38,036 nt of DNA from Lachnospiraceae bacterium (GTDB taxonomy: Bacteria > Bacillota > Clostridia > Lachnospirales > Lachnospiraceae), in assembly GCA_014239155.1 (NCBI GenBank), contig JAAZZQ010000070.1, positions 1 through 38,036 on the forward strand, written 5' to 3'. How positions within the stretch are numbered: position 1 is the stretch's first letter; each line of letters opens with the position of its first letter. The notes beneath the pieces were generated by a model. The model was not told the origin of the DNA and did not search any database. It saw nothing but the letters and a program-made list of their open reading frames with translations. This document shows positions 5,382 through 31,005 of this stretch, piece by piece. The position numbers and the translations under genes were made by a program.

Positions 5382-5383
5382 TG

Positions 5384-16096: not shown

Positions 16097-16270
16097 GCTG
16101 TCTGCGTTTCACCAAAAGAGGAAGCCCAACTGTCAAAATGCCCTAACCCAAGTTTCTGTAACGTGCCATACTGGAGGTAGCGCATATTGGTATAAAGCTC
16201 TGTCATGCTGTTACTGATTGGCGTTCCGGTTGCAAAAGTAACCCCTTTTCCACCTGTTATTTCAGGGACG
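16072..16270 (-). pseudogene. SNF2-type helicase fragment
   Basis: The minus strand reads GGKGVTFATGTPISNSMTEL, then YTNMRYLQYGTLQKLGLGHFD and SWASSFGET. This is the helicase core segment of the very large SNF2/methylase-like proteins carried by Firmicutes conjugative elements. About 65 residues survive out of a protein that normally exceeds 2000; both ends are cut. It shows that a larger conjugative element once occupied this site. Upstream the frame meets a TGA near 16278. Confidence 0.75.
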
Positions 16271-16311
16271 TGTTGTCAAGTGTGTTTTTAAACTTTTATA
16301 ATCGTAAACTC

Positions 16312-16527
16312 TTAATTTAACCGATTGCTCTGCTTTGATTGGCTTCCATAGACTATCAGAAATTCCATTCTTGTAAAGCCTGCTAACGCACCGTAAAACG
16401 GCTTCGGACTTGACCAGAATTCCATTTCTGATGCAGGACAATCAAGCCAATCAATGGCGGTTTCCGCGTCCGGAACACCGGTTTCCAAAATTCCGGAATG
16501 GAGGTTTCTTGAAGCAAGAATATTCAT
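16312..16527 (-). other. Open frame of unknown status
   Basis: A 71-codon frame without a convincing ribosome binding site lies between the helicase fragment and the DUF6973-like gene. Its base composition is richer in G+C than the genes beside it, so it may be debris of a mobile element. I do not recognise the product and would not call it a gene. Confidence 0.2.
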
Positions 16528-16540
16528 TTGAGTTTAGTAA

Positions 16541-17197
16541 TTAATTATTAAGCCAAATAAAATTAGTATTTTCATCATATACAGCATTATAAATTATTTC
16601 TGCTAGCTGTTCTTCGCTTGCTGTTTTATTATTTTCCCCAATAATTCTACCTTCTGCATTATTATGTATGTCCATATTTTTATGTTCTAATTTAGTATGC
16701 CCATCTACCTCCAAACCCGTAATATCCTTATCCTCGTGAGCCGTTGCAAACATTTCTGCTTTCTCACTTCCGATTAATATAACCATTTCTGCATTCCACA
16801 TACCATGTCTAAATGCATCACTCCTATCACCAAGCCCATTATAACCAAACTTTTTTTCTGTCTGTGTAGTTGCAATATTTTTGGCTGTATTTACTTTTAA
16901 TGCATCAAGTGGATATCTAATGACTAATTTTTTTTCTGTATCCGTTAGAGAATTCCAAATATTACTTACACCACTATCTCTTCTCATAGAAACCTGTCTT
17001 ACTATAAGCGTTTCTATTTCTTCATTTCCCTTTTCTGGATTTTTCGATTTAATTTCAATAATAATCTTTATCAGTTCACCAAAATCATCATTTACTTGTA
17101 TTGCTAAAGCATTATTTGCTGCCATAGCCTCAATATTAAATCCGATTATCATCCATATGCATATTACAAATGTCAACAGTCTTATTTTCTTTTTCAT
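16541..17197 (-). CDS. Secreted DUF6973-like protein
   Basis: A 218-residue protein with a clear signal peptide (basic KKK, hydrophobic core, cleavage near AMA-A at residues 24-27). The mature part has DAFRHGMWNAEM (residues 127-138), AHED (153-156) and MDIHNNAEGR (175-184), the conserved histidine/asparagine pattern of DUF6973-type domains, whose function is unknown to me. The pattern suggests a metal-dependent or hydrolytic site. An AGAGAGG ribosome binding site precedes it, and it begins 11 nt after the ABC permease gene, so it is the last gene of the RiPP operon. Possible roles are processing of the exported peptide, immunity, or a separate secreted factor. Confidence 0.6.
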   Translation of the reverse strand: MKKKIRLLTFVICIWMIIGFNIEAMAANNALAIQVNDDFGELIKIIIEIKSKNPEKGNEEIETLIVRQVSMRRDSGVSNIWNSLTDTEKKLVIRYPLDALKVNTAKNIATTQTEKKFGYNGLGDRSDAFRHGMWNAEMVILIGSEKAEMFATAHEDKDITGLEVDGHTKLEHKNMDIHNNAEGRIIGENNKTASEEQLAEIIYNAVYDENTNFIWLNN

Positions 17198-17208
17198 TGT
17201 ATTCCTCT

Positions 17209-19542
17209 CTATACTTGTCGAATTATTTCTATTATGTTAATTTCCTTAACTTTTTGCAAAGGCATCAGTGATGATACAATTGCTGTAAATATAGTAATTC
17301 CAATAATTGTAATTATCATTTCAACAGGTAATCTCCATACGGTATTAAAATACTTAGCAACTAGATGACTATAAAGATAATAATGTAAAGGTACACCAAT
17401 TGCTATTCCTAACGCCCCACCTCCACATGCATATAATAGAGCCTCCAGTATTACTATCTTTTTACATTGTTTTGTCGTCCCACCTACAGCACAAATCATC
17501 CCATACTTTTTCATATTATTCCAAACACTTATGCTCATACAATTTATAATATTAAAGATAGTTACCGCTATGATAGTTCCACAAAATCCATATACAAAGA
17601 CTGCCATTGTTAAAAATTGGTTTTTGCTTTCTTCTTTTTTTTGTCGGTAATCAAATATACTAAATTTTTCTGGTATAATTTTAGTCATTAATTCCCATAC
17701 TTCCTCATTTCCCTTACTAAATCTTATATCCAGTATGGAATAATCCATATTTCCTACTACCTGTTGAAACAATGCTTCTGCAAGCAGGCATCTCACACTG
17801 TCAGCCGAATCATATGGAAAATTCCTTAATACTCCTCCTACTACACACGCTATTGTATTGCCTCCATTACCTTTAATCAGTACCTCATCTCCTACTTCTA
17901 AACCACTTTCTTCATCAACTAATATTTCTTCTCCTTCTAATAACCTGCCTATATTTAATTTCCCAGAAATTATTTTGCTTTCTATCCATTCAAATTGCTG
18001 TTTGTCATATGATACAAGCAACGTAGAAAATACATTTCCATTTTTTTCCAATTCTGCATTGTTTACTTTACGTCCAACAACACTTTCTACACCACTTATT
18101 TCTTCTATTTTCCACTTTACTTCATCATGAATATAGTACTTACCTTCTTTATTATAAATAGAGGCATCCGGATTATATGGCTTTGTAAAATATGAACCTT
18201 CATAAATAAAGTTAATCATAACAGAAAAAGCAAAAATCAAAACAATATTCATTGCAAAAGAAGCTATCATAAGCCCAAGTGATTTTCTATTGCTTCCTGT
18301 CTGTCTAAGGCTAATTAGTAATTCTACTGGAATTTTTATCGTCCTTCTTTTTTTTCGGCATTTTATATCTTTCTGATAAGTTTCTTCATTTATCGCTGTT
18401 AATGGCGGAATACTGCATACATATCTTACCGGACTCACTGTCGCTATCATAACTGCTGCCAAACCAGTAAATATTCCAATCACAATCCCTGCTATACTGA
18501 CTTGAAACACAAAAATATTTTCAAACATATCTTTATTAAGAAGTCGTAGCAATAATAAACAGCACCATGTCAAAACCACCCCGCTCCCAATCCCTGCGGG
18601 TATACTATGACACCATAGTATTTTTCCTTCTTTCTGCACACATCTTCTTAATTGTTTTGAATCTGCTCCTATACACCTAAGTAAGCCATATAATTGCTTT
18701 TTCTCATGAACACTTATATTCAAGCAATTTGTAATCATCAGAATACTTACAAGAAATACAAGACAAAATAAAATACCCGCTATCAAATATAAATTAGCGG
18801 CTAAGACAGATTTCCCCTTTCCCATAACTGCCAACAATATTTCATTTAACTGTATTCTGTTTTCTTCCAAATGATACTCTTCTATAAGTTTACATTTTAC
18901 TTCATCGATTTCTTCCACATTTTGACATGTAATATAATAATCCCCACAACTATTTCCCAGTATCCTTCCGCCTTCTACAGACAACAAAAGACCATACACA
19001 TCTCTTGCTGTAAGGGAAGAAAAGGTATCGCATACCCCTACAATGTCCAGGTTATACGTCTTTCCTTCCAACCTAACTGGCAGGACATCTCCTACCTTCA
19101 AAGCATAATCCTTCTTAACCTTTTTATCAATAACAACCTCTTCTCCGGTCTTTGCATATTGTCCTTCTAAAAGTCTGACATCAAACTGCTGTATGATATC
19201 CGCATCTCCGCATAGTATCCTGCACTCTTTCTCTTTCAATTCTCCTGTTGGTAACTCAACCAACCAGCCTGCATGACTTATTCCTTCTATTTTTTCTATA
19301 TCAGTAATTTCAAAAGAAAGATTTTCCACTTTCATATGATAGTTTCCATAGATGTTCTTGACGGCCTGTATTTCAACATCTATTCCAATATCCGCCAAAC
19401 TAAATACCGTTGTAATCATGCAAATAGCCGCCGCAATACATGCCACTGTAATAGTTGTTTTCTTTTTATGCATACGATAATATTTATATATGATTTCTAA
19501 ATAATTATTCTTCCACTTATCTTCTTTCACTAACACAACCAT
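17209..19542 (-). CDS. ABC transporter permease, FtsX/MacB type
   Basis: A 777-residue membrane protein with two copies of the FtsX-like permease unit. A first transmembrane helix near residues 30-50 is followed by an extracellular domain. Three helices lie around 250-370, another helix and second extracellular domain around 425-650, and three helices at the end. Such permeases pair with a separate ATPase in MacB, LolCDE and BceAB-like pumps, exporting peptides or giving resistance to them. The ATPase gene lies immediately upstream and overlaps it. In this operon it most likely exports the modified peptide or protects the producer. The exact start is uncertain: several ATG/GTG/TTG codons are possible within the first eight. 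Confidence 0.85.
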   Translation of the reverse strand: MVVLVKEDKWKNNYLEIIYKYYRMHKKKTTITVACIAAAICMITTVFSLADIGIDVEIQAVKNIYGNYHMKVENLSFEITDIEKIEGISHAGWLVELPTGELKEKECRILCGDADIIQQFDVRLLEGQYAKTGEEVVIDKKVKKDYALKVGDVLPVRLEGKTYNLDIVGVCDTFSSLTARDVYGLLLSVEGGRILGNSCGDYYITCQNVEEIDEVKCKLIEEYHLEENRIQLNEILLAVMGKGKSVLAANLYLIAGILFCLVFLVSILMITNCLNISVHEKKQLYGLLRCIGADSKQLRRCVQKEGKILWCHSIPAGIGSGVVLTWCCLLLLRLLNKDMFENIFVFQVSIAGIVIGIFTGLAAVMIATVSPVRYVCSIPPLTAINEETYQKDIKCRKKRRTIKIPVELLISLRQTGSNRKSLGLMIASFAMNIVLIFAFSVMINFIYEGSYFTKPYNPDASIYNKEGKYYIHDEVKWKIEEISGVESVVGRKVNNAELEKNGNVFSTLLVSYDKQQFEWIESKIISGKLNIGRLLEGEEILVDEESGLEVGDEVLIKGNGGNTIACVVGGVLRNFPYDSADSVRCLLAEALFQQVVGNMDYSILDIRFSKGNEEVWELMTKIIPEKFSIFDYRQKKEESKNQFLTMAVFVYGFCGTIIAVTIFNIINCMSISVWNNMKKYGMICAVGGTTKQCKKIVILEALLYACGGGALGIAIGVPLHYYLYSHLVAKYFNTVWRLPVEMIITIIGITIFTAIVSSLMPLQKVKEINIIEIIRQV

Positions 19543-20197
19543 CCTTTACATACAGTATTCTATCTGCTACTTTGGCAATATCATGATTATGAGTAATTAG
19601 CAAAACTGTTCTGCCATATTCTTTTGATATTTCCCACAATATTTTAATAACCTCCTGACTATTTTTGCTATCCAAATTGCCTGTCGGTTCATCTGCTAAT
19701 ATCAATTTCGGCTCTGTTGCCAATGCCCTGCCTATCGCCACTCTTTGCTGCTGCCCGCCCGATAACTGTGATGGAAAATGCTGTTTCCTTTTCTCCAGTC
19801 CCAATTTATTTATAATACTATCTATTTTCTTTCTATCCGGCTTATTATGCCCTAATGAAATGGGAAAAATTATATTTTCCTCAACGGTTAATTCCTGAAT
19901 CAAATTAAAGGATTGAAAAATAAAACCTATGTTTTCTCTTCTAAATACTGCTTGCTGATCCAGTGTCATCTCTCTTTGTTCTATCCCATCAATTACTATT
20001 TTTCCGTTGGTCGGTCTGTCTAACATCCCTACAATATTAAGTAAAGTACTTTTTCCAGAACCCGATTCACCTATAATAGCAATAAATTCCCCTTTGTGTA
20101 CTGAAAAACTTACATGATTCAGTGCCTTTACCTCACTATCCCCCGAACCATATATTTTATCGACATTCTCCATTTCCAAAATATAATTATCCGCCAT
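19517..20197 (-). CDS. ABC transporter ATP-binding protein
   Basis: A 226-residue ATPase of the MacB/LolD/BceA class, with Walker A GESGSGKST, Q-loop, signature LSGGQQQR, Walker B LILADEP and an H-loop histidine (LLITHNHD). I place the start at the ATG at 20197 (MADNYILEMENV) because GGGGAGG lies 9 nt upstream, inside the end of the preceding radical SAM gene; a start six codons earlier lacks one. It powers the adjoining FtsX-type permease. Overlaps on both sides show tight coupling with the radical SAM genes and the permease. Confidence 0.93.
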   Translation of the reverse strand: MADNYILEMENVDKIYGSGDSEVKALNHVSFSVHKGEFIAIIGESGSGKSTLLNIVGMLDRPTNGKIVIDGIEQREMTLDQQAVFRRENIGFIFQSFNLIQELTVEENIIFPISLGHNKPDRKKIDSIINKLGLEKRKQHFPSQLSGGQQQRVAIGRALATEPKLILADEPTGNLDSKNSQEVIKILWEISKEYGRTVLLITHNHDIAKVADRILYVKDGCVSERR

Positions 20198-21548
20198 AGC
20201 AACTTTCCTCCCCAAACAAATACTTTTTGTCTATATCAGTTAAAGAAATATATATTTTTAATGCTTGTTCCGTTAAAAACTTTTGCAATTTGCAATTACA
20301 TTCTGCCGGTATATTTATATTTTTCATTAACAAAAGATTATCATGCATACATCCTCCAGAGCATATAGACTGACATATACAATATTTACATTTTTCCGGA
20401 ATTTTATATAATTGATTATATATCACATCATGTTCAAATACATTAGTGGAAACATCCCCCATGCAAAACTCCTTATCACCCACAAATCGATGACATGGAT
20501 ATATATATCCATCAATATCTATAGATATTGCTTTAAAACCTGCTGCACAATAAACATTTCTCTTCTTTCCTTCATGAATTTCTCTTAAAATACTATATAG
20601 ATTATGTCTTGCAATACACTCTTTATATTTATGCTCTAATAATAATTTTTCAAACTCTTCGCAATATAAAAAATAATTTTCGATTATTTTTTCAAAATCA
20701 TTTTCCTTTAACATATTATTTGCTGGTGCCAAATGTACATATGCAAATCCTTCCTCCAACAAATGTGTAACATTTTCACTAACATTCAAACCAGCAGGTG
20801 TAATTGTACCCCTTGCTCCTACAACCATCTTATCTTGTAAGGCTTTTGCACCTTCAAGTATTCTAGAATACGCACCTCTTCTATGAATATCAAACCGATT
20901 TGCATTAGTTACACTTTCTATTCCATCTATACTAACCTGCACTAAAAAATTATTTTCTCTTAAAAACTGTACTATTTCATCGTCCGTAATTGTTCCATTA
21001 GTTGTTATGCTATAATGAGTTTTTTTATTATATAATATATCTTTTTCTTTACAATACCCCACCGAACGCTTTATTACTTCAAAATTTATTAAAGGTTCTC
21101 CTCCAAAAAAAAGAATTACAATATCTTTTGTGTTTCTAGAATGTTCATACAAAAAGTCTATAGCTCTTTTTGCAACTTCAAAACTCATTATACCTATATT
21201 TTTATATTCTCCGCCATCTCCAAAACAGTACTCACATCTTAAATTACATTTCTGTGTTACTAATAATGTCATGTCACATATATCTAATTTTTCTATCTCT
21301 ATTTTTCGTATTCTATCTCCTCTTTCATAAATCAGTTTCATTTCTTCTAATTTATCAATCATTTCCTGTATATCTACTTTTATATCATACCTATTAACTC
21401 TTTTCCACATTTCTTCTTCAGTCGCTGGCTTATTTAATAGCACATCCTTGATTAAGAAATTTATCTTAAAAATTTTATTTGTTTCAGCAATATATACATA
21501 ATTTTCTTTTTCGTTTTCTAATAACATATACGTATTATATATGATCAT
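20187..21548 (-). CDS. Radical SAM/SPASM peptide maturase (third)
   Basis: A 453-residue enzyme. The N-terminal 90 residues look like a PqqD-type peptide-recognition (RRE) domain. The radical SAM core follows, with C101-x3-C105-x2-C108 and FGDGGEY, and GGEPL. The C-terminus (about 335-425) is rich in cysteine, KCKYCICQSICSGGCMHD, as in SPASM domains that hold two auxiliary iron-sulfur clusters. It is a clear paralogue of the first radical SAM enzyme in this operon: the three cluster cysteines even fall at the same residue numbers. Enzymes of this plan typically form thioether or carbon-carbon links in RiPP precursors. Its start overlaps the second radical SAM stop (ATGA). Confidence 0.9.
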   Translation of the reverse strand: MIIYNTYMLLENEKENYVYIAETNKIFKINFLIKDVLLNKPATEEEMWKRVNRYDIKVDIQEMIDKLEEMKLIYERGDRIRKIEIEKLDICDMTLLVTQKCNLRCEYCFGDGGEYKNIGIMSFEVAKRAIDFLYEHSRNTKDIVILFFGGEPLINFEVIKRSVGYCKEKDILYNKKTHYSITTNGTITDDEIVQFLRENNFLVQVSIDGIESVTNANRFDIHRRGAYSRILEGAKALQDKMVVGARGTITPAGLNVSENVTHLLEEGFAYVHLAPANNMLKENDFEKIIENYFLYCEEFEKLLLEHKYKECIARHNLYSILREIHEGKKRNVYCAAGFKAISIDIDGYIYPCHRFVGDKEFCMGDVSTNVFEHDVIYNQLYKIPEKCKYCICQSICSGGCMHDNLLLMKNINIPAECNCKLQKFLTEQALKIYISLTDIDKKYLFGEESCYGG

Positions 21549-22474
21549 ATTTTCCCCTCTATTTTCTCTATAGCATCATCAATAACTTTCTTATCAAAAT
21601 AACTGAATATTTTACTACATGCATCACACATATCTACATATTGGCAATTGTCAACCAAACCAGGATTCATATCTCTAATAGTATTAATCAACACTTGTAA
21701 ACCATTTTTCTTAATATAATTAGTATATATATTATTTTTAGCATTTACCAAAATTGTTTCAAATGAATCCACATAAACATTTCCCACACTTCTTATACTA
21801 CTCATTACACAAGCACTTCCACATGGATATACTGTACCATTGGGTTCAATAAGTAACATATTGCTTTCATTGCATTTTCCTCTAATTGTATCACTCAAAT
21901 AGAACAATTCTTTTGGTATTTTTACTGCATCTCCAATTGGATACGCTCTATATTGGCAAAATAAAATATTAGCCATTTCATCATCAAAATGTTCTAAAAC
22001 ATGCCGATTACCGATTCCATTTTTTAAAATTGTACAACCTATCAAAACTTTAATATCTAACATCTGGGAAATTCTAAAAATTCTTCGATAATTTTCAGTA
22101 GATATATGCTTCATATGGAAATCATCCAAACTAACCTTTATACTTCTTACACCATAGTGTTTGAGTTTTTCTAATTTTTCAAATGTACCATCCTTATCAG
22201 TTGCCCAAAAAGCATTAGTTGTAAATGTTGTTTGCATTCCTAATGAAAAAGCCAACTTGCATAATTCTAAAATTTCTTCATAATAGATAAATGGTTCACC
22301 ACCAGTAATTCCTATAAGTTTAATTCCATTATAAGCAGAATCTCGTATTACCTTTTTTGCTACTTCCAAATCCATTTTTTCATTTCTGTTTGGTCCACAT
22401 TTCAAACCACATATTTCACAAGTTCCCGTACATTTATATGTATACAGCAGCCCTACAGCATTATATTCTATCAT
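21545..22474 (-). CDS. Radical SAM enzyme resembling YydG peptide epimerases
   Basis: A 309-residue enzyme with C15-x3-C19-x2-C22, then GITGGEPFIYYEEI and TTNAFWA. The C-terminal part has NGTVYPCGSACVM, FETIL, IKKNGLQVLIN and CQYVDMCDACSKIF. From memory this order matches YydG, the epipeptide epimerase of Bacillus (about 319 residues), which makes D-residues and carries an auxiliary cluster. It differs in plan from the two long SPASM enzymes beside it. The ATG at 22474 has GGGAGG upstream and overlaps the previous stop as ATGA. Assignment as epimerase is inference; a general twitch/SPASM radical SAM role is the safe call. Confidence 0.8.
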   Translation of the reverse strand: MIEYNAVGLLYTYKCTGTCEICGLKCGPNRNEKMDLEVAKKVIRDSAYNGIKLIGITGGEPFIYYEEILELCKLAFSLGMQTTFTTNAFWATDKDGTFEKLEKLKHYGVRSIKVSLDDFHMKHISTENYRRIFRISQMLDIKVLIGCTILKNGIGNRHVLEHFDDEMANILFCQYRAYPIGDAVKIPKELFYLSDTIRGKCNESNMLLIEPNGTVYPCGSACVMSSIRSVGNVYVDSFETILVNAKNNIYTNYIKKNGLQVLINTIRDMNPGLVDNCQYVDMCDACSKIFSYFDKKVIDDAIEKIEGKI

Positions 22475-23847
22475 CTGTTTTCCTCCCAATATTTGCAAAG
22501 TTTTCTAAATAAATCGGGTTCATTTACTTTAATCTTCAGGTATAATCTAAGACTAATATCAAATAATATTTTATTTTTTTCACACCACTCTTCAGCAGGT
22601 ATATTAATATCCGAATTGTATACTAAATTTTCACACGGACAACCTTCCCCGCAATATAATTGGCAATAACAATTCTGACATTGTGCAACCTTTTGTTTCT
22701 CGAAAGGTTTAGAAAATACTGTGAAATCATGTTGCCTAACATTTCCCAACAAAAAATCATTCTCCCCAACTAAACGATAACACGAATATGCGTCTCCATT
22801 ACTTGCGAATGCTGCAATCTTTTCCTTCCAAACGAAACAATTAATTGCATAGTTTCTAGTATGTAAATTTTGCATATAATCAAATATGTTGCCATAAATA
22901 TTCTTACTTCCAGAAATCAAGTGCTGATACATTAAATCACTCAATATTTCAGTTTGGAATTTGAGTTCTTTATAATCTTTTTCTTGATATATTTCATTTT
23001 TGTCAAATACTATATTTGAGTAAACTTTATCTACTCCCATTTCCCATAAAGCAGTAACTGCTTCTTCTAAAAAAGGAATATCTTCTCTTCGTAATGTTAT
23101 TTGACAATTTAAATTACTAATATGAGCCAACAGTTTTTTTGTGTTTTTTGCAACTAGATCCATACTTCCCTTCCCTGATGCAAACGCTCTATTTTTATTG
23201 TGAATTTTTGAAATCCCATCTAAACTTACACTTACTAAAAAATCATTTTTAATAAACATTTCTATAATACTATTATTTAATATTGTTCCGTTAGTAGTAA
23301 TCATATATTTAACATTTCCGTTAATACTTTGCTTTTTTGAATTTATGTATTGTACAACAAATTCAATTACTTCTAAATTTAAGAGTGGTTCTCCCCCAAA
23401 AAAGCTTACAACGATATTCTGCTTTTTCTCTTCAATATTTTTTAACCAATAATCAACACACCTACGTGCAGTATCAATTGACATCATTTCTTGTTGGAGT
23501 CCATAACTTCCCCCTTTTCCGAAACAATACGAACATTTCAAATTACATTTTTGAGCGACATTTAGGAACAATGTATTAAGTGAGTGCACATTTTTCCCAC
23601 CTATTTTTTGATATGTCCTTAGTAGTAAATTTTGTTCTGATAATATACCATTATTCATTGCTACAAGTAGCCCTTTTTCTGCATTTTCTATTTCTTCCAC
23701 TGTAAACTTTTCTGTTAATTTTTCATTTCTATTTAAAAGTATTTCATATAATATTTCGCTAATTTCAAAAATATTTCCTGTACCACCATCAAATGCAAAG
23801 TATCTATGATTTATTTTTTCTAATTTGAATGTACTATTTACTTTCAT
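22471..23847 (-). CDS. Radical SAM/SPASM peptide maturase (first)
   Basis: A 458-residue enzyme encoded right after the precursor peptide. Residues 1-80 resemble a PqqD-like recognition domain that would hold the leader. C101-x3-C105-x2-C108 (CNLKCSYCFGKGGSY) binds the SAM cluster, with FFGGEPLLN after it. A SPASM-type cysteine region, CQNCYCQLYCGEGCPC, follows near 370-395. It is paralogous to the third enzyme of the operon. With three cysteines in the precursor, thioether formation (sactipeptide or ranthipeptide type) is the leading guess for its chemistry. The start at 23847 follows GGAGGG; an earlier in-frame codon would lie inside that site. Confidence 0.9.
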   Translation of the reverse strand: MKVNSTFKLEKINHRYFAFDGGTGNIFEISEILYEILLNRNEKLTEKFTVEEIENAEKGLLVAMNNGILSEQNLLLRTYQKIGGKNVHSLNTLFLNVAQKCNLKCSYCFGKGGSYGLQQEMMSIDTARRCVDYWLKNIEEKKQNIVVSFFGGEPLLNLEVIEFVVQYINSKKQSINGNVKYMITTNGTILNNSIIEMFIKNDFLVSVSLDGISKIHNKNRAFASGKGSMDLVAKNTKKLLAHISNLNCQITLRREDIPFLEEAVTALWEMGVDKVYSNIVFDKNEIYQEKDYKELKFQTEILSDLMYQHLISGSKNIYGNIFDYMQNLHTRNYAINCFVWKEKIAAFASNGDAYSCYRLVGENDFLLGNVRQHDFTVFSKPFEKQKVAQCQNCYCQLYCGEGCPCENLVYNSDINIPAEEWCEKNKILFDISLRLYLKIKVNEPDLFRKLCKYWEENR

Positions 23848-23864
23848 TTTTCCCTCCAATCAGA

Positions 23865-23907
23865 AAAATCGGGTGATATTATTATAAAACTAATATCACC
23901 CGATTTT
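23865..23907 (-). terminator. Hairpin between precursor and modification genes
   Basis: A perfect 17-bp stem (23865-23881 with 23891-23907, 9-nt loop) is followed on the minus strand by TTTTTC. It lies 8 nt after the precursor stop and just before the ribosome binding site of the first radical SAM gene. Such leaky terminators let RiPP operons make more precursor mRNA than enzyme mRNA. Confidence 0.8.
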
Positions 23908-23914
23908 ACGTACA

Positions 23915-24043
23915 CTAATGGATAAACGGCTGACAAATACCTTCGATTGATCCACAAGAGTCTGAATGTCCGCAGAAGATAAATCCATCATTGTCCTTAA
24001 CTTCTTTGTCCTCTACGTTTACCTGAACAAACATCTTATCCAT
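23915..24043 (-). CDS. RiPP precursor peptide, 42 residues, three cysteines
   Basis: The ATG at 24043 follows AAGGAGG and encodes 42 residues. The N-terminal half (MDKMFVQVNVEDKEVKDNDG) is acidic and leader-like. The C-terminal half has Cys24, Cys30 and Cys37 among Gly, Ser and His (CGHSDSC, GSIEGIC, QPFIH). It lies between agrB and the first radical SAM gene, with a terminator-like hairpin just after it; small size, position and cysteines all fit a substrate for these enzymes. It matches no named class I can recall: it lacks the six-cysteine SCIFF pattern, and the double-glycine leader end is not evident. Cleavage probably falls near residues 20-23. Confidence 0.8.
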   Translation of the reverse strand: MDKMFVQVNVEDKEVKDNDGFIFCGHSDSCGSIEGICQPFIH

Positions 24044-24123
24044 AACCTTGTCCTCCTTCCTTTAATGATTATATTATCTCCTCAACAAGGAATGATAATA
24101 TCAAATATGATCTTTTCTATTAA

Positions 24124-24681
24124 TTATTCTGTACTCATTGCGACTTTTCTATATTTTATATACCCTCCTATTAAAGAAATTCCAACCATTGAGCATGCAA
24201 CGGCGATAGGCGTTGATATATACACAATTGATGCCTTCTTTAAAATACAATATAGTACATAATAAATTAATGCTATTTTTTTAGCTCTTGTTCCGTATTC
24301 TTTCTTTTCTTCATACTCCAATCTATGCACAACACTGTCTATAGGAGATAAGAATATAATTATAAGCAAATTGATTGTTTGAATTAAAATTCCTACATTA
24401 TCATCACATTGTAATATTTTAATTCCCATCAATGCGATAAACAGAGTAATGAAAGAAAGAAAATAGCATCTTATGGGAGTATCCGCATGATACCCACCTG
24501 CATATTTTCTTAATGCACTAAAGCAAAATAAAAAAAATATACTTTGCCATACTATACCCAACAGATACCCCGCCATTATTGTAACTATGGTGCTTATAGA
24601 TATAACTATACTTCTTCTAATACCATAATTTATGATTTCCTCTCGCTCTTCTTCTGACAGTTGCTCAATCTGAATACTCAT
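24124..24681 (-). CDS. agrB: AgrB-like pheromone-processing membrane protease
   Basis: AgrB is a membrane cysteine protease that cleaves the AgrD C-terminal tail and forms the thiolactone ring of the autoinducing peptide. The 185-residue product has the family motif RKYAGGYHADTPIRC with catalytic His65 and Cys72 exactly seven residues apart, and about five hydrophobic segments. It starts 2 nt after the agrD stop, the reverse of the S. aureus B-D order but common in Clostridia. The gene is followed by 80 nt without a terminator before the RiPP precursor, so agrDB and the RiPP genes probably share a transcript. Confidence 0.93.
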   Translation of the reverse strand: MSIQIEQLSEEEREEIINYGIRRSIVISISTIVTIMAGYLLGIVWQSIFFLFCFSALRKYAGGYHADTPIRCYFLSFITLFIALMGIKILQCDDNVGILIQTINLLIIIFLSPIDSVVHRLEYEEKKEYGTRAKKIALIYYVLYCILKKASIVYISTPIAVACSMVGISLIGGYIKYRKVAMSTE

Positions 24682-24683
24682 CT

Positions 24684-24824
24684 TTAAAACTTCCTTAATT
24701 TTTTTACCGCCTTAGGTATCTCTGGTTGATAATTAATAAATGGACATGTTGTATTTGCTTCAGAAATCGCTGCCCTGATTGCAATTTTCTCAATTATCTT
24801 TTTTAATCTGTTATGCTTTTTCAT
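24684..24824 (-). CDS. agrD: AgrD-like autoinducing peptide precursor
   Basis: I use the ATG at 24824 (46 residues), which has GTGAGGG upstream; an in-frame ATG at 24875 gives 63 residues but overlaps the promoter -10. The layout is that of AgrD: a basic amphipathic helix (KKHNRLKKIIEKIAIRAA), a short core with a single cysteine (NTTCPFIN), and a recognition tail YQPEIPKAVKKL. The YQPE.P tail is the usual AgrB recognition element. By analogy with Clostridium perfringens (CLWFT before HQPEEP), the predicted signal is a CPFIN thiolactone, perhaps with N-terminal residues or the following Tyr. Confidence 0.88.
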   Translation of the reverse strand: MKKHNRLKKIIEKIAIRAAISEANTTCPFINYQPEIPKAVKKLRKF

Positions 24825-24870
24825 TTTGTATCCCTCACTTGTATAATGATTCATTTGTTTTTTTGATAAT

Positions 24871-24898
24871 ATCATATTTTCATATCTTAATTTTCCAA
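24871..24898 (-). promoter_or_regulatory. agrDB promoter with weak -35
   Basis: On the minus strand TTGGAA (24893-24898), a 16-bp spacer and TATGAT (24871-24876). The poor -35 and short spacer suggest that an activator is needed. The direct repeats of the putative AgrA site start 2 bp upstream of the -35. Confidence 0.6.
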
Positions 24899-24900
24899 AT

Positions 24901-24930
24901 GGCGAAATTCATATATATTAGGGCGAAATT
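24901..24930 (-). promoter_or_regulatory. Putative AgrA (LytTR) binding repeats
   Basis: Two identical 9-bp direct repeats, AATTTCGCC on the minus strand (24901-24909 and 24922-24930), are separated by 12 bp, so their centres lie 21 bp, two helical turns, apart. That is the spacing of AgrA sites in S. aureus, although the sequence differs. They lie directly upstream of the agrDB promoter -35. Binding by the encoded LytTR regulator is inferred. Confidence 0.7.
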
Positions 24931-24933
24931 TGT

Positions 24934-24987
24934 ACAAAAAAAGCCTCTCCATTGAAATAGGTCTGGTAAACCTAAACGATGTGAGGC
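24934..24987 (-). terminator. Terminator after agrC
   Basis: On the minus strand GCCTC (24983-24987) pairs with GAGGC (24943-24947), with an inner AGGT/ACCT stem, and T7 follows. It lies about 35 nt after the agrC stop and separates agrAC from the AgrA-controlled agrDB-RiPP transcript. Confidence 0.75.
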
Positions 24988-25021
24988 AATAATATGTAAG
25001 TGTCTGTTAAATTTTCTATTT

Positions 25022-26278
25022 CTACAATAAAGCATATAATATAATTTTTACATCAAAAATATTATCTTTGTCTGATATCTGCATATCCCCCTTGTAAGTA
25101 TCAACCACGTTCTTGACATTTTGCAATCCGATTCCATGAATCCGCTTCTCTTTCTTTGTGGTAATATAAATTTCTCCTTTTCTTTTTATTGCATTATCAT
25201 AACTATTTCTGACACGAATAAAAAGCATACCCCGTTCATAATTTAAAAATAGTTCCAACCATCTTTCCTTTGACTGCTCAGCTGACTCTATCGCATTCTC
25301 CAATAGATTCCCGACAATGACATTTAAATCAAAGGAACGAATTGCCAATTCCTTTGGGATATTTATCTCGTAATTAACATGATTAAGAACTGTCTTTGCT
25401 CTGTTCAGCATATAATTCATCAGACTGTCTACTTCCTGATTTCCACTGCTGATATACTCATGTGGATTTTCAAGATATGCCTGCATATCACAAATATAGT
25501 CCATTACTTTATCATCATTTTGATGCCTCGCTAAAATCATTAATTCATTTAAATGGTGCTTCATATCATGCTTTAGTGTTCTTACTTTTTCTTCCGTTTG
25601 TGTCATAATATTTAATTGATTGGCATAGCTAGCAATCTGTCGTTCAAATAATGCTCTTTCCTCTAACTTTAAATAAGCATCAACTAAAACACCATATAAA
25701 TAAAATATTAATAGATTAATAAGCAAAATCCCAACACTTACAGAAATTAGTATCATTCTGCTATTCAGGTTGTTCATAACCAATATTAGTAAAATCATTA
25801 TACTAATAGCAGGGATAGCAATTAATATGTTTCCGTGAAATGGTATAAAATCCTTACTTTTATTCTTCACCAAAAATCTCTCTACAACAAATTCACAAAT
25901 AAGTATTAAAAAAGTAGTAATGTATACTGTCATTCCATTTGCTTCTTCACCTACCATGTAATTACCAAAGGAATATACTGCTATAATGTCACAAAACATA
26001 TTGATTCCATATATCAAAAGAGTAACCAATACTTTTTTCTTCTCTACCCCCACATATAATCGTGTAATAAAATAAATCAATAATAAATTAGTTATGATGT
26101 TTAATACGGGAAAGTGAAAAAACGAATGAACTAATACTGTCAGTGAAAAGAAAACAAAATAACATATCCTCTCCTTTCCCTTTTCTTCAATATTTATTTC
26201 AAAAAATATTGACATGAATCTTTTGAGAATGAATGTTCTAAATAAGTTAGTGCTTAAAACCGTAATCATTTCTGCCAC
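25022..26278 (-). CDS. agrC: AgrC-like sensor histidine kinase
   Basis: A 418-residue membrane sensor. Residues 1-200 hold about six hydrophobic helices, the pheromone-sensing part. A dimerisation helix follows with LKHDMKHHLNEL (phosphoacceptor likely His237), then a GHKL ATPase domain with N-box NLLENAIESAE and G-box HGIGLQNVKNVV. It should detect the cyclic peptide made from AgrD and phosphorylate AgrA. The start is a GTG at 26278 with GGGAGG upstream, one nucleotide after the agrA stop. Length and order are normal for AgrC. Confidence 0.93.
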   Translation of the reverse strand: MAEMITVLSTNLFRTFILKRFMSIFFEINIEEKGKERICYFVFFSLTVLVHSFFHFPVLNIITNLLLIYFITRLYVGVEKKKVLVTLLIYGINMFCDIIAVYSFGNYMVGEEANGMTVYITTFLILICEFVVERFLVKNKSKDFIPFHGNILIAIPAISIMILLILVMNNLNSRMILISVSVGILLINLLIFYLYGVLVDAYLKLEERALFERQIASYANQLNIMTQTEEKVRTLKHDMKHHLNELMILARHQNDDKVMDYICDMQAYLENPHEYISSGNQEVDSLMNYMLNRAKTVLNHVNYEINIPKELAIRSFDLNVIVGNLLENAIESAEQSKERWLELFLNYERGMLFIRVRNSYDNAIKRKGEIYITTKKEKRIHGIGLQNVKNVVDTYKGDMQISDKDNIFDVKIILYALL

Positions 26279-26279
26279 A

Positions 26280-26996
26280 TTATTTTTCCTCCCATTTATA
26301 TTTCATAATCTGTTCCCTTACTAATTTTCGATATGGAATACTAATACTCAATAAATTATCTCCCTGCATTCTGATTGCTTCATAGGAACACTCTACCATA
26401 TAATCTAAATTTATAATATAAGACTGATGAATCATGATAAAATTATGTGGTAATTCTGAAGCTATTTCTTTCAGTTTTCCATTAAACTGTCTTTCGCCCT
26501 CTCTTGTAACAATATTAATCTTCTTATTCTGGCTATAGAAAAATATAATTTCTCGAAAAGAAATCTTGTAAAAATAACCTTTCGAATAATACTCAAATTT
26601 TTGATTTTTCAATTCGTAAAAATGAATGCTCTTTAAAAATACATTTTCTACAGTTTCTGTCTTTAATGGTTTAATTAAAAAGCCTATCGGTTGCACCTCA
26701 AAAAGCCGCATTGCATAACTGCTTTTAGATGAAATATATATGATAATTAATTCTAAATTTTTCATTTTCTCTCGTATAAAATTACCTACCTGAATTCCGT
26801 CTGTGGTAATTAAGTCTATGTCCAAAAACAGCATATCTAAAGTATTTTCCCTTTTTAAAAAATCACAAAGACTTTCTCCGGAAAACCATACACTTGTTTC
26901 TAGCCCTACCCCATGCTTTTTTCCCAATTTATAAATCATATCTTCCAGTTCTGCACAGACTTCTTTTCCATCATCACATATCCCTATATGAAACAC
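26280..26996 (-). CDS. agrA: AgrA-like LytTR response regulator
   Basis: A 238-residue regulator. The receiver domain has Asp8/Asp9 (ICDDG), the phosphoacceptor Asp59 in LFLDID, and KPL with the conserved lysine. The C-terminal half is a LytTR DNA-binding domain (FYSQNKKINIVTREGE, MIHQSYIINLDYM). It is probably phosphorylated by AgrC and activates the agrDB-RiPP promoter. I place the start at a GTG at 26996 because GGGGGAGG lies 7 nt upstream and because the receiver begins there; thirty codons of open frame further upstream look non-coding. Confidence 0.92.
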   Translation of the reverse strand: MFHIGICDDGKEVCAELEDMIYKLGKKHGVGLETSVWFSGESLCDFLKRENTLDMLFLDIDLITTDGIQVGNFIREKMKNLELIIIYISSKSSYAMRLFEVQPIGFLIKPLKTETVENVFLKSIHFYELKNQKFEYYSKGYFYKISFREIIFFYSQNKKINIVTREGERQFNGKLKEIASELPHNFIMIHQSYIINLDYMVECSYEAIRMQGDNLLSISIPYRKLVREQIMKYKWEEK

Positions 26997-27161
26997 ATCA
27001 TATCCTCCCCCAATTTTTGTTTTATACTCAAACTTCGCACTTGAATAAGTGTTTATGCACCTTGAACATTCAATAATTACTGGCATTAAAATAGCATGAA
27101 ACCATCTGGTTTGGTATAATTGAGTTGTTCAAAACAATTAAAACACCACAGGCTCATGCCT

Positions 27162-27704
27162 CAAGTAGATATGGGGATTGCTCCCCATACCCCTCATTAG
27201 AACCGTACATGCACTATTAACGCATACGACTCAACCCAATATTCTTTCATTGCAAGGTGTGCCCCTTCCCTCCACCGTTATTAACGGTTTCTTTGGTACT
27301 ATGAGCACTTCAGACTTCCTATTATCCATTTAATTTCCTCTCTTGTTCCCTTAATTGTACATCATACCCTATGCCAGGGGGATAATAAGACCCCAACTGT
27401 TCTGTATTATATATTTCTCATCAACCTCTCCAAGCTCTCGGACTGGGGGATGCCCCTGTCCCTCACCATAGCGGTTACAGAGATGTTGTCTGCTACGAAC
27501 GCAAACGCATCGACCATTTCCGACCTCATACTAATTTGCAAGCTCTATCACTTCACTTTCGTTTCGGCTCTGTTGCCTCTGTCCTATGCTTAAATCTGAT
27601 GTTGCCACTTCGACTCCAAGGACTTGGTACGGGCGGTTGATTAAACCTTTCCCGACAGGATTTTCCTGCTATATAATCAGCTATGCTGATTTCTCAGCTC
27701 GCAC
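27162..27704 (-). mobile_element. Group II intron lacking its protein gene
   Basis: Read on the minus strand, the element begins GTGCGAGCTGAG, the usual 5' start of bacterial group II introns. It continues through domain I-III-like sequence and ends with domain V (27200-27232: GAGTCGTATGCG, then GTACGGTTC) and a domain VI hairpin (GGGGAGCAATCCCC). Total length is about 540 nt, whereas ORF-bearing introns are 2 kb or more. It carries only a 32-codon stub where the reverse transcriptase should be, so it can move or splice only with help in trans. It lies about 165 nt upstream of the agrA start on the same strand. The exact 3' end is uncertain by a few bases. Confidence 0.82.
27231..27329 (-). 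pseudogene. Group II intron reverse transcriptase stub
   Basis: The ATG at 27329, preceded by AGAGAGG, opens MDNRKSEVLIVPKKP, the standard beginning of intron-encoded proteins (LtrA type) in Lachnospiraceae. It stops after 32 codons at the edge of domain V. The RT, maturase and endonuclease domains have been deleted cleanly, leaving the ribozyme. Confidence 0.65.
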
Positions 27705-27815
27705 TATGAATAAAAGTATAACACAAAACAACCAAAATGATAAACAAATTTCTAAATCTATCCGAAGATTTTTTACTATTTTTTACTAGATTTCATGTTT
27801 CATCTGTATTAAAAA

Positions 27816-28514
27816 CGGCTAATGCGTATAAAAAGAAGGGAACTCCTGCAGTGGAAATCTTTCAGTACCTGTTTCTTTTGATTTTTTCAAACAGAGGCAT
27901 ATAAGAACCTTATTTCATGAAGAAATACTCTGGCTTTTGCCAAGGATACTGTATACCGCTTTATGAAAATGGTCCAGATCAACTGGATCCGTTTTACAAC
28001 CATTCTTGCAGGCAGAATCATCAGAGAGGCAATCCTTCCGCTGGATTCACAAGACCGCGCCAACGTATTGATCATCGATAATTCTATGTTTGAACGCAAC
28101 CGTTCAAAAAAAACGGAACTTCTTGCAAAAGTATATGACCATGCCAGACACACTTATAAATTTAGTTTCCGTATGCTCACGCTTGGATGGTCTGACGGAA
28201 GTACTTTCCTTCCGATTAACAGTGTGCTTCTTCCACCTGAAAATAAGAAAAACTGGATCAATCAAGCAGAGCCTGTCGAAAAAAGAACCGTTGGTTATAA
28301 ACGGCGTGCACTTTCTATGCAGAAAGGAACACATGCCATGCTGGAACTCCTGTCATCTGCTAAAAAAGCAGCCATTCCTGCAAAATATGTCCTTTTTGAC
28401 AGCTGGTTTTCCTCTCCAAGCGCCCTACATTCCGTTAAGGAAACTGGGTATGATGTCATCGGAATGATAAAGAAAACCCCGAAAATGTTCTTCCGTTATA
28501 ATGGGGAAGTCTAA
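27816..28514 (+). pseudogene. IS4-family transposase fragment
   Basis: Continuous from 27963, 183 codons read as the central part of an IS4-type DDE transposase: VLIIDNSMFERNRSKKTELL, KVYDHARHTYKFSFRMLTLG, KYVLFDSWFSSP. Upstream, KKKGTPAVEIFQYLFLLIF (from about 27830) and AFAKDTVYRFM belong to the same protein in different frames, with one frameshift near 27893 and one TGA. The C-terminus is missing after YNGEV. The gene is dead and cut off next to the relaxase of the Tn4451-like element, so that element's left boundary may lie at 28512-28580. Confidence 0.8.
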
Positions 28515-28581
28515 TGCTGGAACATAGACTGGATGTCCCTGCTCACACTCTCTCCCACAAGCAGACCACCATCTGCCTATT

Positions 28582-30270
28582 CTACCTCGCCCCTTTGTCA
28601 TTTTGCCTTGCCTGATGCACCCTGCCTGCTTCTCTTTCTTTTATAGCCCTCTCTTTTTGCCTAAGCCTGTCTCTGACGCTCTTAGTATCCACCACTTTTT
28701 CTCCATAAGTTTTCTCGTACTCCGCACAAGCTGCTTCATAATTCTGATTCTCTCTTTTTGCCACATCAAGTTCCTTATAGAATGCCTGCATAGAATCAAA
28801 ATGATGTTCTTTCACAATAGAAGAAAGCCTCTTTTTCATATTGAAAATCTGATTATCAAAGCTGTCGATCTCCTGCTGTAACTCCCTGCGCCTGCCGCCT
28901 TTGAAGATGCCCGTACATTCAGACAATTCTTTTTTCAGCATATCCCTCTGTTTTTCACGCCCGAATATTGCCTTGTTCTGGTCTTTCAGCCTGCCCTCAA
29001 TCTCTTTCAGCCGGGGATATTTACTTGCCAGTACGGACGGTTTTGGCTGCGGCGGTCTTTCTGCTGGCTGCTCTTTTTCAACCAGAACAGGTTTTCGCTC
29101 CGCCTTTACCTGTTTAATAATGCTTTCTTTCTCTTTGGAAGCAGTCATTGAATATTCTGTATTCTTTTTCATATCGAGTTTTCGATGCGGATCTATGGGA
29201 AATGGTATCTCCTTTCTTTCCGGCTGAAATCCTGGATCATCTCCTGCATGGATACGGCTGTCCGTTTCTTTTGATGTTTCCTTTATGGCACTGACACCAT
29301 TTCCGATCACTTTCTCCACTATATCAATCACCTTCTGCATGGCTTTCATAATCAGGAGTTCTAACAACAAAATCGCTGCCCTGACAATCTCCCCGAACAG
29401 CTCCGGCCTTTGTCCGTTCTGCTCCACGGATTCTTTTACTTTATCCGTTATCTCCGTCTTTTTAAGCTCCACAATCTCCGCTTCTGATACGCCGCTTACA
29501 ATCGCACGGTCAACGGTTCTGTTCCACTCCATGCGTATTTCATTGTCCGATTTGATTTCCTCCGCTTTCGGATTATTTTTGCCAACCTTCTTTGTCGCAA
29601 GGTACGGACCGTTTTTATCAAAAATACTTAACCTGTCCCTATCATCAAGCACCATCTGGTTGATTAAATCCGTATAAAACACTTTTACCCCATCTAAAAA
29701 AGATTCTTGCTTAAAGCGTTCATCTTTGACAGTGAAAATTTTGCGTTCATACACCTCACCTTTTTTAATGATTTTACAGCCTTGACGGATATTCCCATCT
29801 CCGTCAAGAATCTCTTTCTTTGTCCTCACATGACGCCCCTGCTCATTGTAGAACATATTCCGAGTGGCAATTTTCTCTGTCGGCTGTTCCAGCCGCTTTC
29901 TCTCCGCAAATACCATATGGATATGCAGATTCGTTTTACGTTTATTGTGGTGGAGCGCAGCAAAGCACTCCACGCCGTACTTTTCCTTAAATTCGTCTGC
30001 CATCTTTTTCAAAAGATAGTCATGCTCATAGTTGATAAAACTCTCCGGAAGTGCAATCATCAGCTCCCTTGCCTCAATGCACTTCCCATTCGTGCCGCTT
30101 TTTTCAAATTCCTCCTGATTACATTTGGCAAGCTCCCGCCAGAATGCCCTGTCCGGCTCCGTTGTATAGACTTCATAGAGATGCTCCTGCTTGGCGTGGC
30201 TTGAAATATAAGTGATGCGCCCTGATAAGTCATGCAGCTTTGCCATTTCTATAAATGAATTTCTTTTCAT
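28582..30270 (-). CDS. MobA/MobL-family relaxase
   Basis: A 562-residue relaxase that would nick oriT and lead one strand into a recipient. Its N-terminal domain has a candidate catalytic Tyr21 (GRITYIS) and the metal-binding histidines HHNKRKTNLHIH (His107, 108, 116, 118), typical of MobA/MobL (MOBQ-type) enzymes. The C-terminal half (about 400-560) is a long charged coiled coil, KDQNKAIFGREKQRDMLKKE and onward. I place the start at the ATG at 30270, with AAAGGAAAAG upstream, not at the earlier in-frame codon at 30312. Transfer would depend on a helper conjugative system, since no coupling protein or type IV secretion genes are present. Confidence 0.9.
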   Translation of the reverse strand: MKRNSFIEMAKLHDLSGRITYISSHAKQEHLYEVYTTEPDRAFWRELAKCNQEEFEKSGTNGKCIEARELMIALPESFINYEHDYLLKKMADEFKEKYGVECFAALHHNKRKTNLHIHMVFAERKRLEQPTEKIATRNMFYNEQGRHVRTKKEILDGDGNIRQGCKIIKKGEVYERKIFTVKDERFKQESFLDGVKVFYTDLINQMVLDDRDRLSIFDKNGPYLATKKVGKNNPKAEEIKSDNEIRMEWNRTVDRAIVSGVSEAEIVELKKTEITDKVKESVEQNGQRPELFGEIVRAAILLLELLIMKAMQKVIDIVEKVIGNGVSAIKETSKETDSRIHAGDDPGFQPERKEIPFPIDPHRKLDMKKNTEYSMTASKEKESIIKQVKAERKPVLVEKEQPAERPPQPKPSVLASKYPRLKEIEGRLKDQNKAIFGREKQRDMLKKELSECTGIFKGGRRRELQQEIDSFDNQIFNMKKRLSSIVKEHHFDSMQAFYKELDVAKRENQNYEAACAEYEKTYGEKVVDTKSVRDRLRQKERAIKEREAGRVHQARQNDKGAR

Positions 30271-30509
30271 AAACGCTTTTCCTTTCTTTTGGCGGATAAC
30301 CTGCCACCGCATTTTTTGTGAGCAGCCATTATAGGACGGCTGTCTGTGAACCGATGCCCGTATCCGGGCAGTCTACGGCTGTCGCTTTCTGACAGCCGCA
30401 GGGGGCTTTGTTTTGTGAAGTCCCCTCTGCAATGCTGCACATCTGTCCTGAAATGTAGCCGTAAGCAGCAGCGCCATCTATGCGCCCGTCCTCTGGGCGG
30501 CATGGATAA

Positions 30510-30665
30510 ATACAGTCCGGTTTTTTCGGACTGTATAAATTCACACTTGCGTGAATTTGCCCCCGGCAGGGCGAAATCCCCGGAGCATAAACCGAAGGTT
30601 TGTGCGTAGGGTGTATTTCGCTCTCAAACGCCGAGGGCTTAGGGGAGAGCTTGCGCCCTCCCCGG
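30510..30665. other. Putative oriT of the Tn4451-like element
   Basis: The region upstream of the relaxase gene carries three inverted repeats: ATACAGTCCG/CGGACTGTAT near 30511-30538, AATTCAC/GTGAATT near 30538-30558, and CATAAACC/GGTTTGTG near 30584-30605. GCGCCCTCCCC at 30653-30663 equals, as I remember it, the core around the RSF1010/R1162 (MOBQ) nick site. Position and partner relaxase fit an origin of transfer; the nick site is not proven. Confidence 0.45.
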
Positions 30666-30730
30666 AAATTAGTTGCTGACACTCTCTGAACCACTCCGAA
30701 GCAGTCCGTGGAACAGATTCTTTACAGGCA

Positions 30731-30782
30731 TAAAAAAGCCGCCTGCCTGAAAACTGGTATTCCAGTCTCAAAACAGACGGCT
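30731..30782 (-). terminator. Strong terminator downstream of the hairpin array
   Basis: On the minus strand AGCCGTCTG (30774-30782) pairs with CAGGCGGCT (30737-30745), one G-U pair, around an inner ACTGG/CCAGT stem, followed by T6. It ends the transcript that crosses the segregation genes and hairpin array, so the relaxase must have its own promoter between 30271 and 30730; no clear one was seen. Confidence 0.85.
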
Positions 30783-30794
30783 ACATTTGCACCC

Positions 30795-31005
30795 TTATTT
30801 GCAGCCTTCCGGCTGCTTTCTGCCCTTATTTTGCGGGCTTGAATGCCCGCCCTTTATTATGCAGCCTTTAATGGCTGCCCCTTGTCCTTGTTTTGTAGCC
30901 TTTCGGCTACCTTTTGTTAGTCTTTTTTCAAAATACGGCTACATTTATACTTTGATATAAAAAATCCGCAAAAATAAGGCTACAGTAAACCTAATTACCG
31001 TAGCC
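30795..31005 (-). repeat. Array of short G/C hairpins, several with GNRA loops
   Basis: Four perfect 6-bp hairpins lie at 30801-30816, 30833-30850, 30861-30878 and 30895-30910, starting every 28-34 bp. Their joints contain variants of CCCTTATTTT. On the minus strand two have GNRA tetraloops (GAAA, GGAA), the others 6-nt loops. Related GTAGCC half-sites occur at 30777-30785 and 30933-30942, and a longer GGCTAC/GTAGCC hairpin at 30978-31005 with a T-run directly follows the ParR-like gene. The array would form the 3' part of that transcript, ahead of the terminator. Its function is unknown. Confidence 0.75.

Follow-up and report, generated by a model that had tools for sequence, protein, structure and literature searches.

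A putative agr quorum switch for a radical SAM-modified peptide on an apparently mobile island in Lachnospiraceae

The window analyzed here is a 38,036-nucleotide stretch from Lachnospiraceae bacterium (contig C46 of a draft genome of 4.57 Mb and 89 contigs, with completeness of 98.4% and contamination of 4.0%). On its minus strand, from 16541 to 26996, an agr-type peptide quorum-sensing system leads directly into genes for a ribosomally synthesized and post-translationally modified peptide (RiPP) and three radical S-adenosylmethionine (SAM) enzymes. The eleven genes (agrA, agrC, agrD, agrB, a precursor gene, rSAM1, rSAM2, rSAM3, an ATP-binding cassette [ABC] ATPase gene, an FtsX-type permease gene, and a DUF6973 gene) are all open and lie where an earlier note, made from the letters alone, had placed them; their families are confirmed. 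This configuration suggests, with reasonable though far from complete assurance, an island-encoded quorum switch for a thioether peptide of the CX3D/CX3E (PapB-like) type (Table 1).

In the proposed mechanism, the island's AgrD pheromone would act through AgrC and AgrA to activate one promoter before agrD, and the transcript would yield more pheromone (through agrD and agrB) together with a second peptide's precursor. Transcription would probably stop in most cases at a hairpin after the precursor gene, so that precursor would be abundant and enzyme scarce; some transcripts would continue into the genes for the three radical SAM enzymes, the ABC/FtsX pair, and the DUF6973 protein. The two PapB-like enzymes (rSAM1 and rSAM3) would probably close two thioether rings from Cys to Asp/Glu, C24-D28 and C30-E34; rSAM2 would make a third change, possibly at C37 and probably other than simple EpeE-type epimerization; and ABC/FtsX would export the product, protect its maker, or both.

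Table 1. Coordinates of the agr-RiPP genes, associated sequence signals, and island features in the window
Feature	Position	Strand	Evidence
agrA, LytTR response regulator	26280..26996	-	PF04397 57 bits; PF00072 (receiver) 37.5 bits
agrC, sensor kinase	25022..26278	-	GHKL ATPase PF14501 84.1 bits
Terminator-like fold between agrC and the agrD promoter (GCCTC...GAGGC followed by T7; before the AgrA site)	24936..24987	-	Minimum free energy (MFE) -17.6, z -1.96
Putative AgrA/LytTR-type site, AATTTCGCC-N12-AATTTCGCC (exact 9-N12-9 repeat)	24901..24930	-	Repeat between agrC and agrD
Promoter-like TTGGAA-N16-TATGAT, just after the second repeat	24871..24898	-	Promoter scan; position is the only added argument
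agrD, 46 aa, contains TTCPFINYQPEIP	24684..24824	-	TIGR04223 45.9 bits (cut-off 19)
agrB, AgrD-processing membrane peptidase	24124..24681	-	PF04647 109.6 bits (cut-off 23)
Precursor, 42 aa, MDKMFVQVNVEDKEVKDNDGFIFCGHSDSCGSIEGICQPFIH	23915..24043	-	Open reading frame; GGAAGGAGG ahead of ATG
Strong hairpin and T-run between precursor and rSAM1	23865..23907	-	MFE -22.6 kcal/mol, z -6.17, 0/200 shuffles
rSAM1, SPASM-type maturase, PapB-like	22471..23859	-	NF047865 219.1 bits (cut-off 340); 5wgg E 8.6e-42
rSAM2, YydG/EpeE-like	21545..22498	-	TIGR04078 136.7 bits (below cut-off, 300); EpeE 8ai3 E 3.6e-24
rSAM3, SPASM-type maturase nearest PapB	20187..21548	-	NF047865 321.1 bits (cut-off 340); 5wgg E 3.2e-56
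ABC ATPase	19517..20215	-	PF00005 (ABC_tran) 130.8 bits
FtsX-type permease, MacB/PsdB-like	17209..19542	-	PF02687 84.3 bits; weak matches MacB E 7.7e-4, PsdB E 2.7e-3
DUF6973 protein, predicted secreted	16541..17197	-	PF22322 92.5 bits; signal-like N-terminus by eye
Apparent mobile island	16262..38036 at least		Left end ~16262 in helicase gene; alignments to other genomes
MobA/MobL-like relaxase of island	28582..30312	-	PF03389 25.0 bits (cut-off 26.7); MobQ 23.8 bits (cut-off 200)
Large serine recombinase of island	32546..34519	-	PF00239, PF07508, PF14287, PF13408

Assignment to the agr family follows from an AgrB and an AgrD above their family cut-offs, a GHKL kinase, and a LytTR regulator, all encoded at one locus. 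For agrA a GTG start at 26996 is preferred, the reading frame being open to 27086. The signal core of AgrD is probably a CPFIN thiolactone, with the ring size proposed by analogy to other agr signals. The AgrA/LytTR site of an agr promoter is made of two tandem 9-bp repeats with a spacing of 21 bp, and an exact repeat of this form precedes agrD. The earlier note had called it the only AgrA-like site, and no other stretch of the window matches it with up to three mismatches (0.05 expected; 5 of 100 shuffles have a match), nor does any other place in the whole genome match it exactly. Seven other genome matches, one with two mismatches and six with three, are at chance level (the pattern read backward, as a control, gives six). 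The two-mismatch match (C2:87741) was rejected as a second AgrA target; it falls inside a coding region of locus L027. A perfect pair at the site's spacing was reached in 4 of 2000 dinucleotide shuffles of the 197-nt agrC-agrD intergenic stretch, and with all spacings of 19 to 23 allowed, 12 of 1000 had one. The relaxase gene contains, at 28982, another perfect pair of 9-mers with spacing 21 and different letters.

Other agr loci were collected from 60 Lachnospiraceae genomes with completeness of 95% or more. AgrB was found at E 1e-20 in 21 genomes (41 rows), and omission of one row full of stops left 40 loci with about 10 kb on each side, some cut by contig ends. The 450 nt upstream of AgrB at each (two loci gave only 176 and 277 nt) were scanned for exact 9-mer pairs with at least three different letters and at least one G or C. 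Pairs at spacing 21 occur in 11 of the 40 loci (10 of 39 without the window), and no other spacing between 10 and 40 gives pairs in more than two; among the loci printed out, the letters of the spacing-21 repeat vary from one to the next. Perfect 9-N12-9 direct repeats before agrB may represent a general AgrA site in Lachnospiraceae.

As the earlier note had it, no terminator is found in the gap between agrB and the precursor gene, where the fold is no better than that of shuffles (z -0.23). A strong hairpin with a T-run, terminator-like and possibly a terminator or a processing site, does follow the precursor gene; hairpins in this position are a common device for setting the ratio of precursor to enzyme in RiPP operons. 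A simple terminator scan (loops up to 8 nt) reports neither this hairpin, because its loop is 9 nt, nor the fold after agrC, and reports two other sites (3.3 expected). The fold after agrC was evaluated in the stretch 24915-25022, where 7 of 200 shuffles are equally good. In view of the strong hairpin, agr probably drives agrD, agrB, and the precursor gene, with the enzyme genes expressed by read-through or from another promoter; an agr-driven agrD-agrB-precursor transcript from which the enzyme genes are reached by read-through appears likeliest. That the AgrD pheromone turns on both its own production and a separate peptide, as first proposed, agrees with the single agr-type site before agrD and the missing terminator before the precursor gene; extending agr control to the enzyme genes is less certain than in that proposal, because the strong hairpin follows the precursor and promoter-like sites before the precursor are possible.

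One alternative is that the hairpin is a true terminator, so that agr runs only itself and the precursor gene, while constitutive expression or another signal would account for the enzymes, ABC/FtsX, and DUF6973. The strength of the hairpin, its T-run, and its position immediately after the precursor gene speak for this arrangement. We nevertheless judge it unlikely, though deserving of serious weight: the probable start of rSAM1, an ATG at 23847 that follows GGAGG and is likelier than the listed TTG, lies only 16 nt past the T-run, leaving little room for a promoter, and such hairpins commonly have the ratio-setting role just mentioned.

Proximity to radical SAM genes is not a general property of agr. 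With five maturase queries and E below 1e-12, a radical SAM peptide maturase was called in 2 of the 40 agr loci, the window and contig C43 of the same genome (L020, 445-11550), where agrD-agrB stand before a CLI_3235/CcpM cluster on the same strand; a weaker match in L082 (3e-11, no CxxxCxxC found) was not counted. On this count a general linkage between agr and radical SAM genes was rejected. Approached from the RiPP side, the association recurs. Lachnocin maturases were found in 3 of 378 genomes, at four loci: in L126 (genome G321) agrA-agrC-agrB-agrD lie directly before an exporter, a lachnocin precursor, and a maturase on one strand; in L123 (G104) a full agr system adjoins DUF6973, ABC/FtsX, kinase/regulator, and lachnocin genes; L027, in the same genome as the window, has an AgrA-type regulator alone; and L119 has no agr gene. 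A full agr system is thus present at two of the four, with AgrB and AgrD above family cut-offs in both; a third has only AgrA. A search of 119 genomes for CcpM maturases gave 11 rows in 8 genomes, and agr lies nearby in two of these rows, C43 and L130 (G029), the latter with agr genes before the CcpM cluster on the same strand and AgrB confirmed. DUF6973 (11 rows in 8 of 250 genomes) marks ten loci, two of them on contigs under 5 kb; five have agr-type genes (the window, L027, L118, L123, and L124) and four have radical SAM maturases (the window, L027, L119, and L123).

The combination of agr with a radical SAM RiPP is therefore uncommon but not unique: 38 of 40 agr loci lack a radical SAM maturase, and agr also stands beside lachnocin and CcpM genes, though the numbers are small. 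Under a second alternative, agr and the RiPP genes are neighbors only as joint cargo of the island, and the precursor gene has its own, agr-independent promoter. A promoter-like site at 24123-24095 (from a scan at chance level), a difference at 24090 between agrB and the precursor gene in one island copy, and the 38 agr loci just mentioned are compatible with this; the missing terminator after agrB and the recurrence of agr at lachnocin and CcpM loci argue against it, and we consider it quite improbable.

The predicted product of the switch is suggested by the precursor and by two of the enzymes. The precursor matches nothing in the protein family libraries searched, the lachnocin precursor family included, and contains three cysteines: C24-x3-D28 (CGHSD) and C30-x3-E34 (CGSIE) have the CX3D/E form of a PapB-type ranthipeptide, and C37 (CQPFIH) has Ile at +4. 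PapB joins Cys to Asp or Glu within such CX3D/E motifs (PMC9413430). PapB is the best NCBIfam family of both rSAM3 and rSAM1, and the lachnocin maturase family is not reached by either (94.6 and 81.9 bits, respectively, versus a cut-off of 550). Their nearest solved protein by sequence is 5wgg, the thioether-forming maturase CteB. With rSAM1 as query, only the genome of the window was found at E 1e-60 among 397 Lachnospiraceae genomes, and a plasmid search gave 219 records, all below 60% identity (23.5 to 30.8% among the 30 of 219 listed).

The third enzyme, rSAM2, had been described as YydG-like. YydG is indeed its best family and EpeE/YydG its nearest solved protein, but it scores below the TIGR04078 cut-off and a catalytic cysteine is replaced. 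Cys223 of EpeE is the proposed hydrogen donor, mutation of which leads to breakage of the peptide (PMC8326336). In this column rSAM2 has Gly (PCGS, CG), against Cys (CC) in 15 of 15 full-length homologs examined, and it cannot safely be called an epimerase on this account. The alignment drew on 17 homologs (phmmer E below 1e-8) from 12 loci, in which three weaker matches were unused; two of the 17, 125-aa pieces without the site, were left out, and three in L115 and three in L116 are near copies. A further alternative is that rSAM2 is still an epimerase, with C230, the cysteine four residues past C226 (PCGSAC), serving as hydrogen donor, and that the product is a thioether-ringed epipeptide. 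The overall homology to YydG/EpeE and the placement of C230 make this possible, if on the unlikely side, given the conservation of Cys at the EpeE column. The enzyme rSAM2 represents an EpeE-family radical SAM enzyme in which the hydrogen donor of the epimerase has been naturally replaced. Relatives of rSAM2 were found at E 1e-20 in 5 of 397 Lachnospiraceae genomes and at E 1e-18 in 8 of 391 genomes from the class, in both cases including its own, and the others share 24 to 33% identity; scans of viral contigs with rSAM2, with the DUF6973 pair, and with the YydG alignment gave no relatives. With rSAM2 relatives this distant and rSAM1 confined to its own genome in the family scan, no diverged version of the cluster was found.

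The locus is apparently cargo of a mobilizable island that ends in a helicase gene and, to judge from its copies, has moved recently between species. In a scan of one genome per species, rSAM1 is 100% identical in four contigs, which align with the window at 99.8-100%: Lachnospiraceae bacterium 526-35 (17.5 kb), Parablautia muri D42-62 (17.6 kb, the contig aligning on through the window's end at 38036), a Clostridium sp. metagenome-assembled genome (MAG; 3.7 kb, the whole of a short contig), and Lachnospiraceae bacterium 1XD21-87 (17.7 kb). Right of 16262, 1XD21-87 shows zero differences over 17.6 kb and the MAG zero over 3.7 kb; P. muri has one substitution, in agrC; and 526-35 has one substitution between agrB and the precursor gene (24090) and an in-frame 66-bp insertion in agrC (L048). 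All eleven genes are present in the three named genomes with 0, 1, and 2 differences, and the coding differences among copies are two, both in agrC (one single-nucleotide variant and the insertion). In the neighborhood check that the earlier note had proposed, the near-identical copies covering the agr end all keep agr (L030, L031, and L033; the contig of L032 ends inside agrB). Left of 16262, P. muri and 1XD21-87 diverge from the window inside the helicase gene, which is open over 912 codons in 1XD21-87 (Helicase_C and LPD16, with weak SNF2-like matches) and only a fragment in the window. The island also encodes an actin-like protein.

Since agrD is identical, and agrC almost so, in carriers of different species, the pheromone may gauge the number of island carriers and not of one species; and with a density signal of its own placed directly before the peptide genes, a carrier would probably make the peptide only with enough other carriers near. 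A broader proposal, which we regard as doubtful, is that agr on this mobilizable island lets carriers in different gut species hear one pheromone and jointly switch on, at sufficient carrier density, a peptide that has two thioether rings and also a third radical modification, of a new kind, introduced by the YydG-family enzyme without the epimerase cysteine; the peptide would favor carriers over non-carriers, the switch would serve the spread of the island, and across Lachnospiraceae agr would repeatedly control radical SAM RiPP modules that can be exchanged. A switch on a recently moved island would offer a defined test of whether quorum sensing counts the carriers of a mobile element across species. 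The locus points to the agr system, well known from staphylococci, as one that controls radical SAM peptides in gut Lachnospiraceae much as Rgg/SHP does in streptococci.

Several observations weigh against an agr-controlled thioether peptide. An exact spacing-21 pair is not seen in 29 of the 40 agr loci, and no such repeat occurs in the four intergenic stretches scanned in the agr-lachnocin locus L126. With 66 matches against 64.9 expected, the promoter scan does no better than chance, which leaves room for an independent promoter for the precursor or the enzymes, and the hairpin after the precursor may separate the enzymes from agr. Both PapB-like enzymes are under the NF047865 cut-off, and Asp or Glu at +4 from two of three cysteines could be chance in so acidic a peptide (roughly estimated at about 0.1). 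Finally, the copies of the cluster that were found are all near-identical and offer no pattern of substitutions in support of the precursor or the AgrA-type site.

Each part of the locus comes from a known family. What seems new is their combination: an agr-linked cluster on an apparently mobile island, encoding two PapB-like enzymes together with a YydG-family enzyme that is without the epimerase cysteine. Lachnocin clusters (NF038169/NF038170) are similar in having agr genes at three of four loci and related ABC/FtsX and DUF6973 genes at three of four, whereas the precursor and maturases of the window fail the lachnocin families and its eleven genes include no S8-like protein, separate exporter, or second kinase/regulator pair. 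Freyrasin/PapB ranthipeptides share the nearest maturase family and the CX3D and CX3E motifs; the window differs in its sub-cut-off scores, two maturases, three cysteines in place of six motifs, rSAM2, and agr. Epipeptide operons, named epeXEPAB or yyd (PMC12871923), contain a YydG-like radical SAM enzyme and an ABC pair, as does the window, whose eleven genes lack a recognized EpeP-like protease and the catalytic cysteine and add PapB-like enzymes.

Peptide quorum sensing of the Rgg/SHP type controls radical SAM RiPP (RaS-RiPP) clusters in streptococci (PMC8326336, PMC8092268, PMC13361665); there too a peptide quorum-sensing system accompanies a radical SAM RiPP, but the regulator is Rgg, and here it is agr (AgrD pheromone, membrane kinase, and LytTR regulator). 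The main text of PMC13361665 contains the term agr 0 times, against 18 in an index count for that paper. In Clostridium beijerinckii, SCIFF-derived ranthipeptides are likewise tied to agr, through upregulation of the agr locus (Chen et al. 2020, cited in review PMC8102284); the accessible part of the review describes no agr-RiPP operon, and the peptide there seems to affect agr, not the reverse. The LanM-like gene CA_C0082 of C. acetobutylicum is directly downstream of agr and agr-controlled (PMC10301443), and so resembles the window in placing a RiPP-enzyme-like gene directly after agr; the LanM-like protein lacks conserved catalytic residues and stands without other lanthipeptide machinery. 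The Hungate1000 survey, in its accessible part, treats ranthipeptides and AgrD peptides as separate classes (PMC13289728). A literature search, with most subscription papers outside its reach, found no agr-ranthipeptide or agr-lachnocin operon among the matches listed and no paper on lachnocin. Streptococcal integrative and mobilizable elements (IMEs) with serine integrases integrate in snf2 genes of integrative and conjugative elements (ICEs) (PMC5357655); the island shares the serine recombinase, a relaxase-like gene, and an apparent insertion in a helicase gene, and differs in its RiPP and quorum-sensing cargo, in lying outside the streptococci from which such IMEs are known, and in that its host ICE is putative.

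The many overlaps of 4-26 nt first attributed to these genes apply in part: four adjacent pairs overlap (FtsX/ABC by 26 nt; rSAM3/rSAM2 by 4 nt; ABC/rSAM3 by 29 nt from the listed TTG start or 11 nt from the next in-frame ATG; and rSAM2/rSAM1 by 28 nt from the listed TTG or 4 nt from the next in-frame ATG), and the remaining six do not. The ABC/FtsX pair resembles MacB-, Lol-, and Psd/Bce-type transporters, the permease weakly, and may serve in export, self-protection, or both. The DUF6973 protein and its nearest relative, as a two-sequence profile, match the Bacteroides fragilis type VI secretion system effector 9uu0 at E 1.6e-4 (single sequence, E 0.008), a possible likeness that we treat as a lead only; no paper on 9uu0 was recognized among the matches listed. 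A motif, AFRH..W ... AHE ... NN..GR, is common to DUF6973 (window 16541-17197; L027:3783-4445) and 9uu0. A single-sequence structure prediction of the DUF6973 protein had a mean pLDDT of 36.9 and was not used. A role of this protein as leader protease was weighed, and neither supporting nor contrary evidence turned up.

A sister element in 526-35 (L049, C221) shares the recombinase/relaxase backbone (81-87% identity) and lies next to the same helicase stretch, matched there at 79%; its cargo includes ResIII and Eco57I-type restriction genes. Just upstream of agrA are a group II intron remnant (27433-27664; Rfam RF02005, 90.2 bits) and a DDE transposase fragment (27963-28514). Left of the island, the region 1153-15940 is rich in defense genes, encoding type I restriction-modification proteins, a Gp49/HTH pair resembling a toxin-antitoxin system, and an Avs2-like protein of 1366 aa (643 bits, PADLOC Avs2 model).

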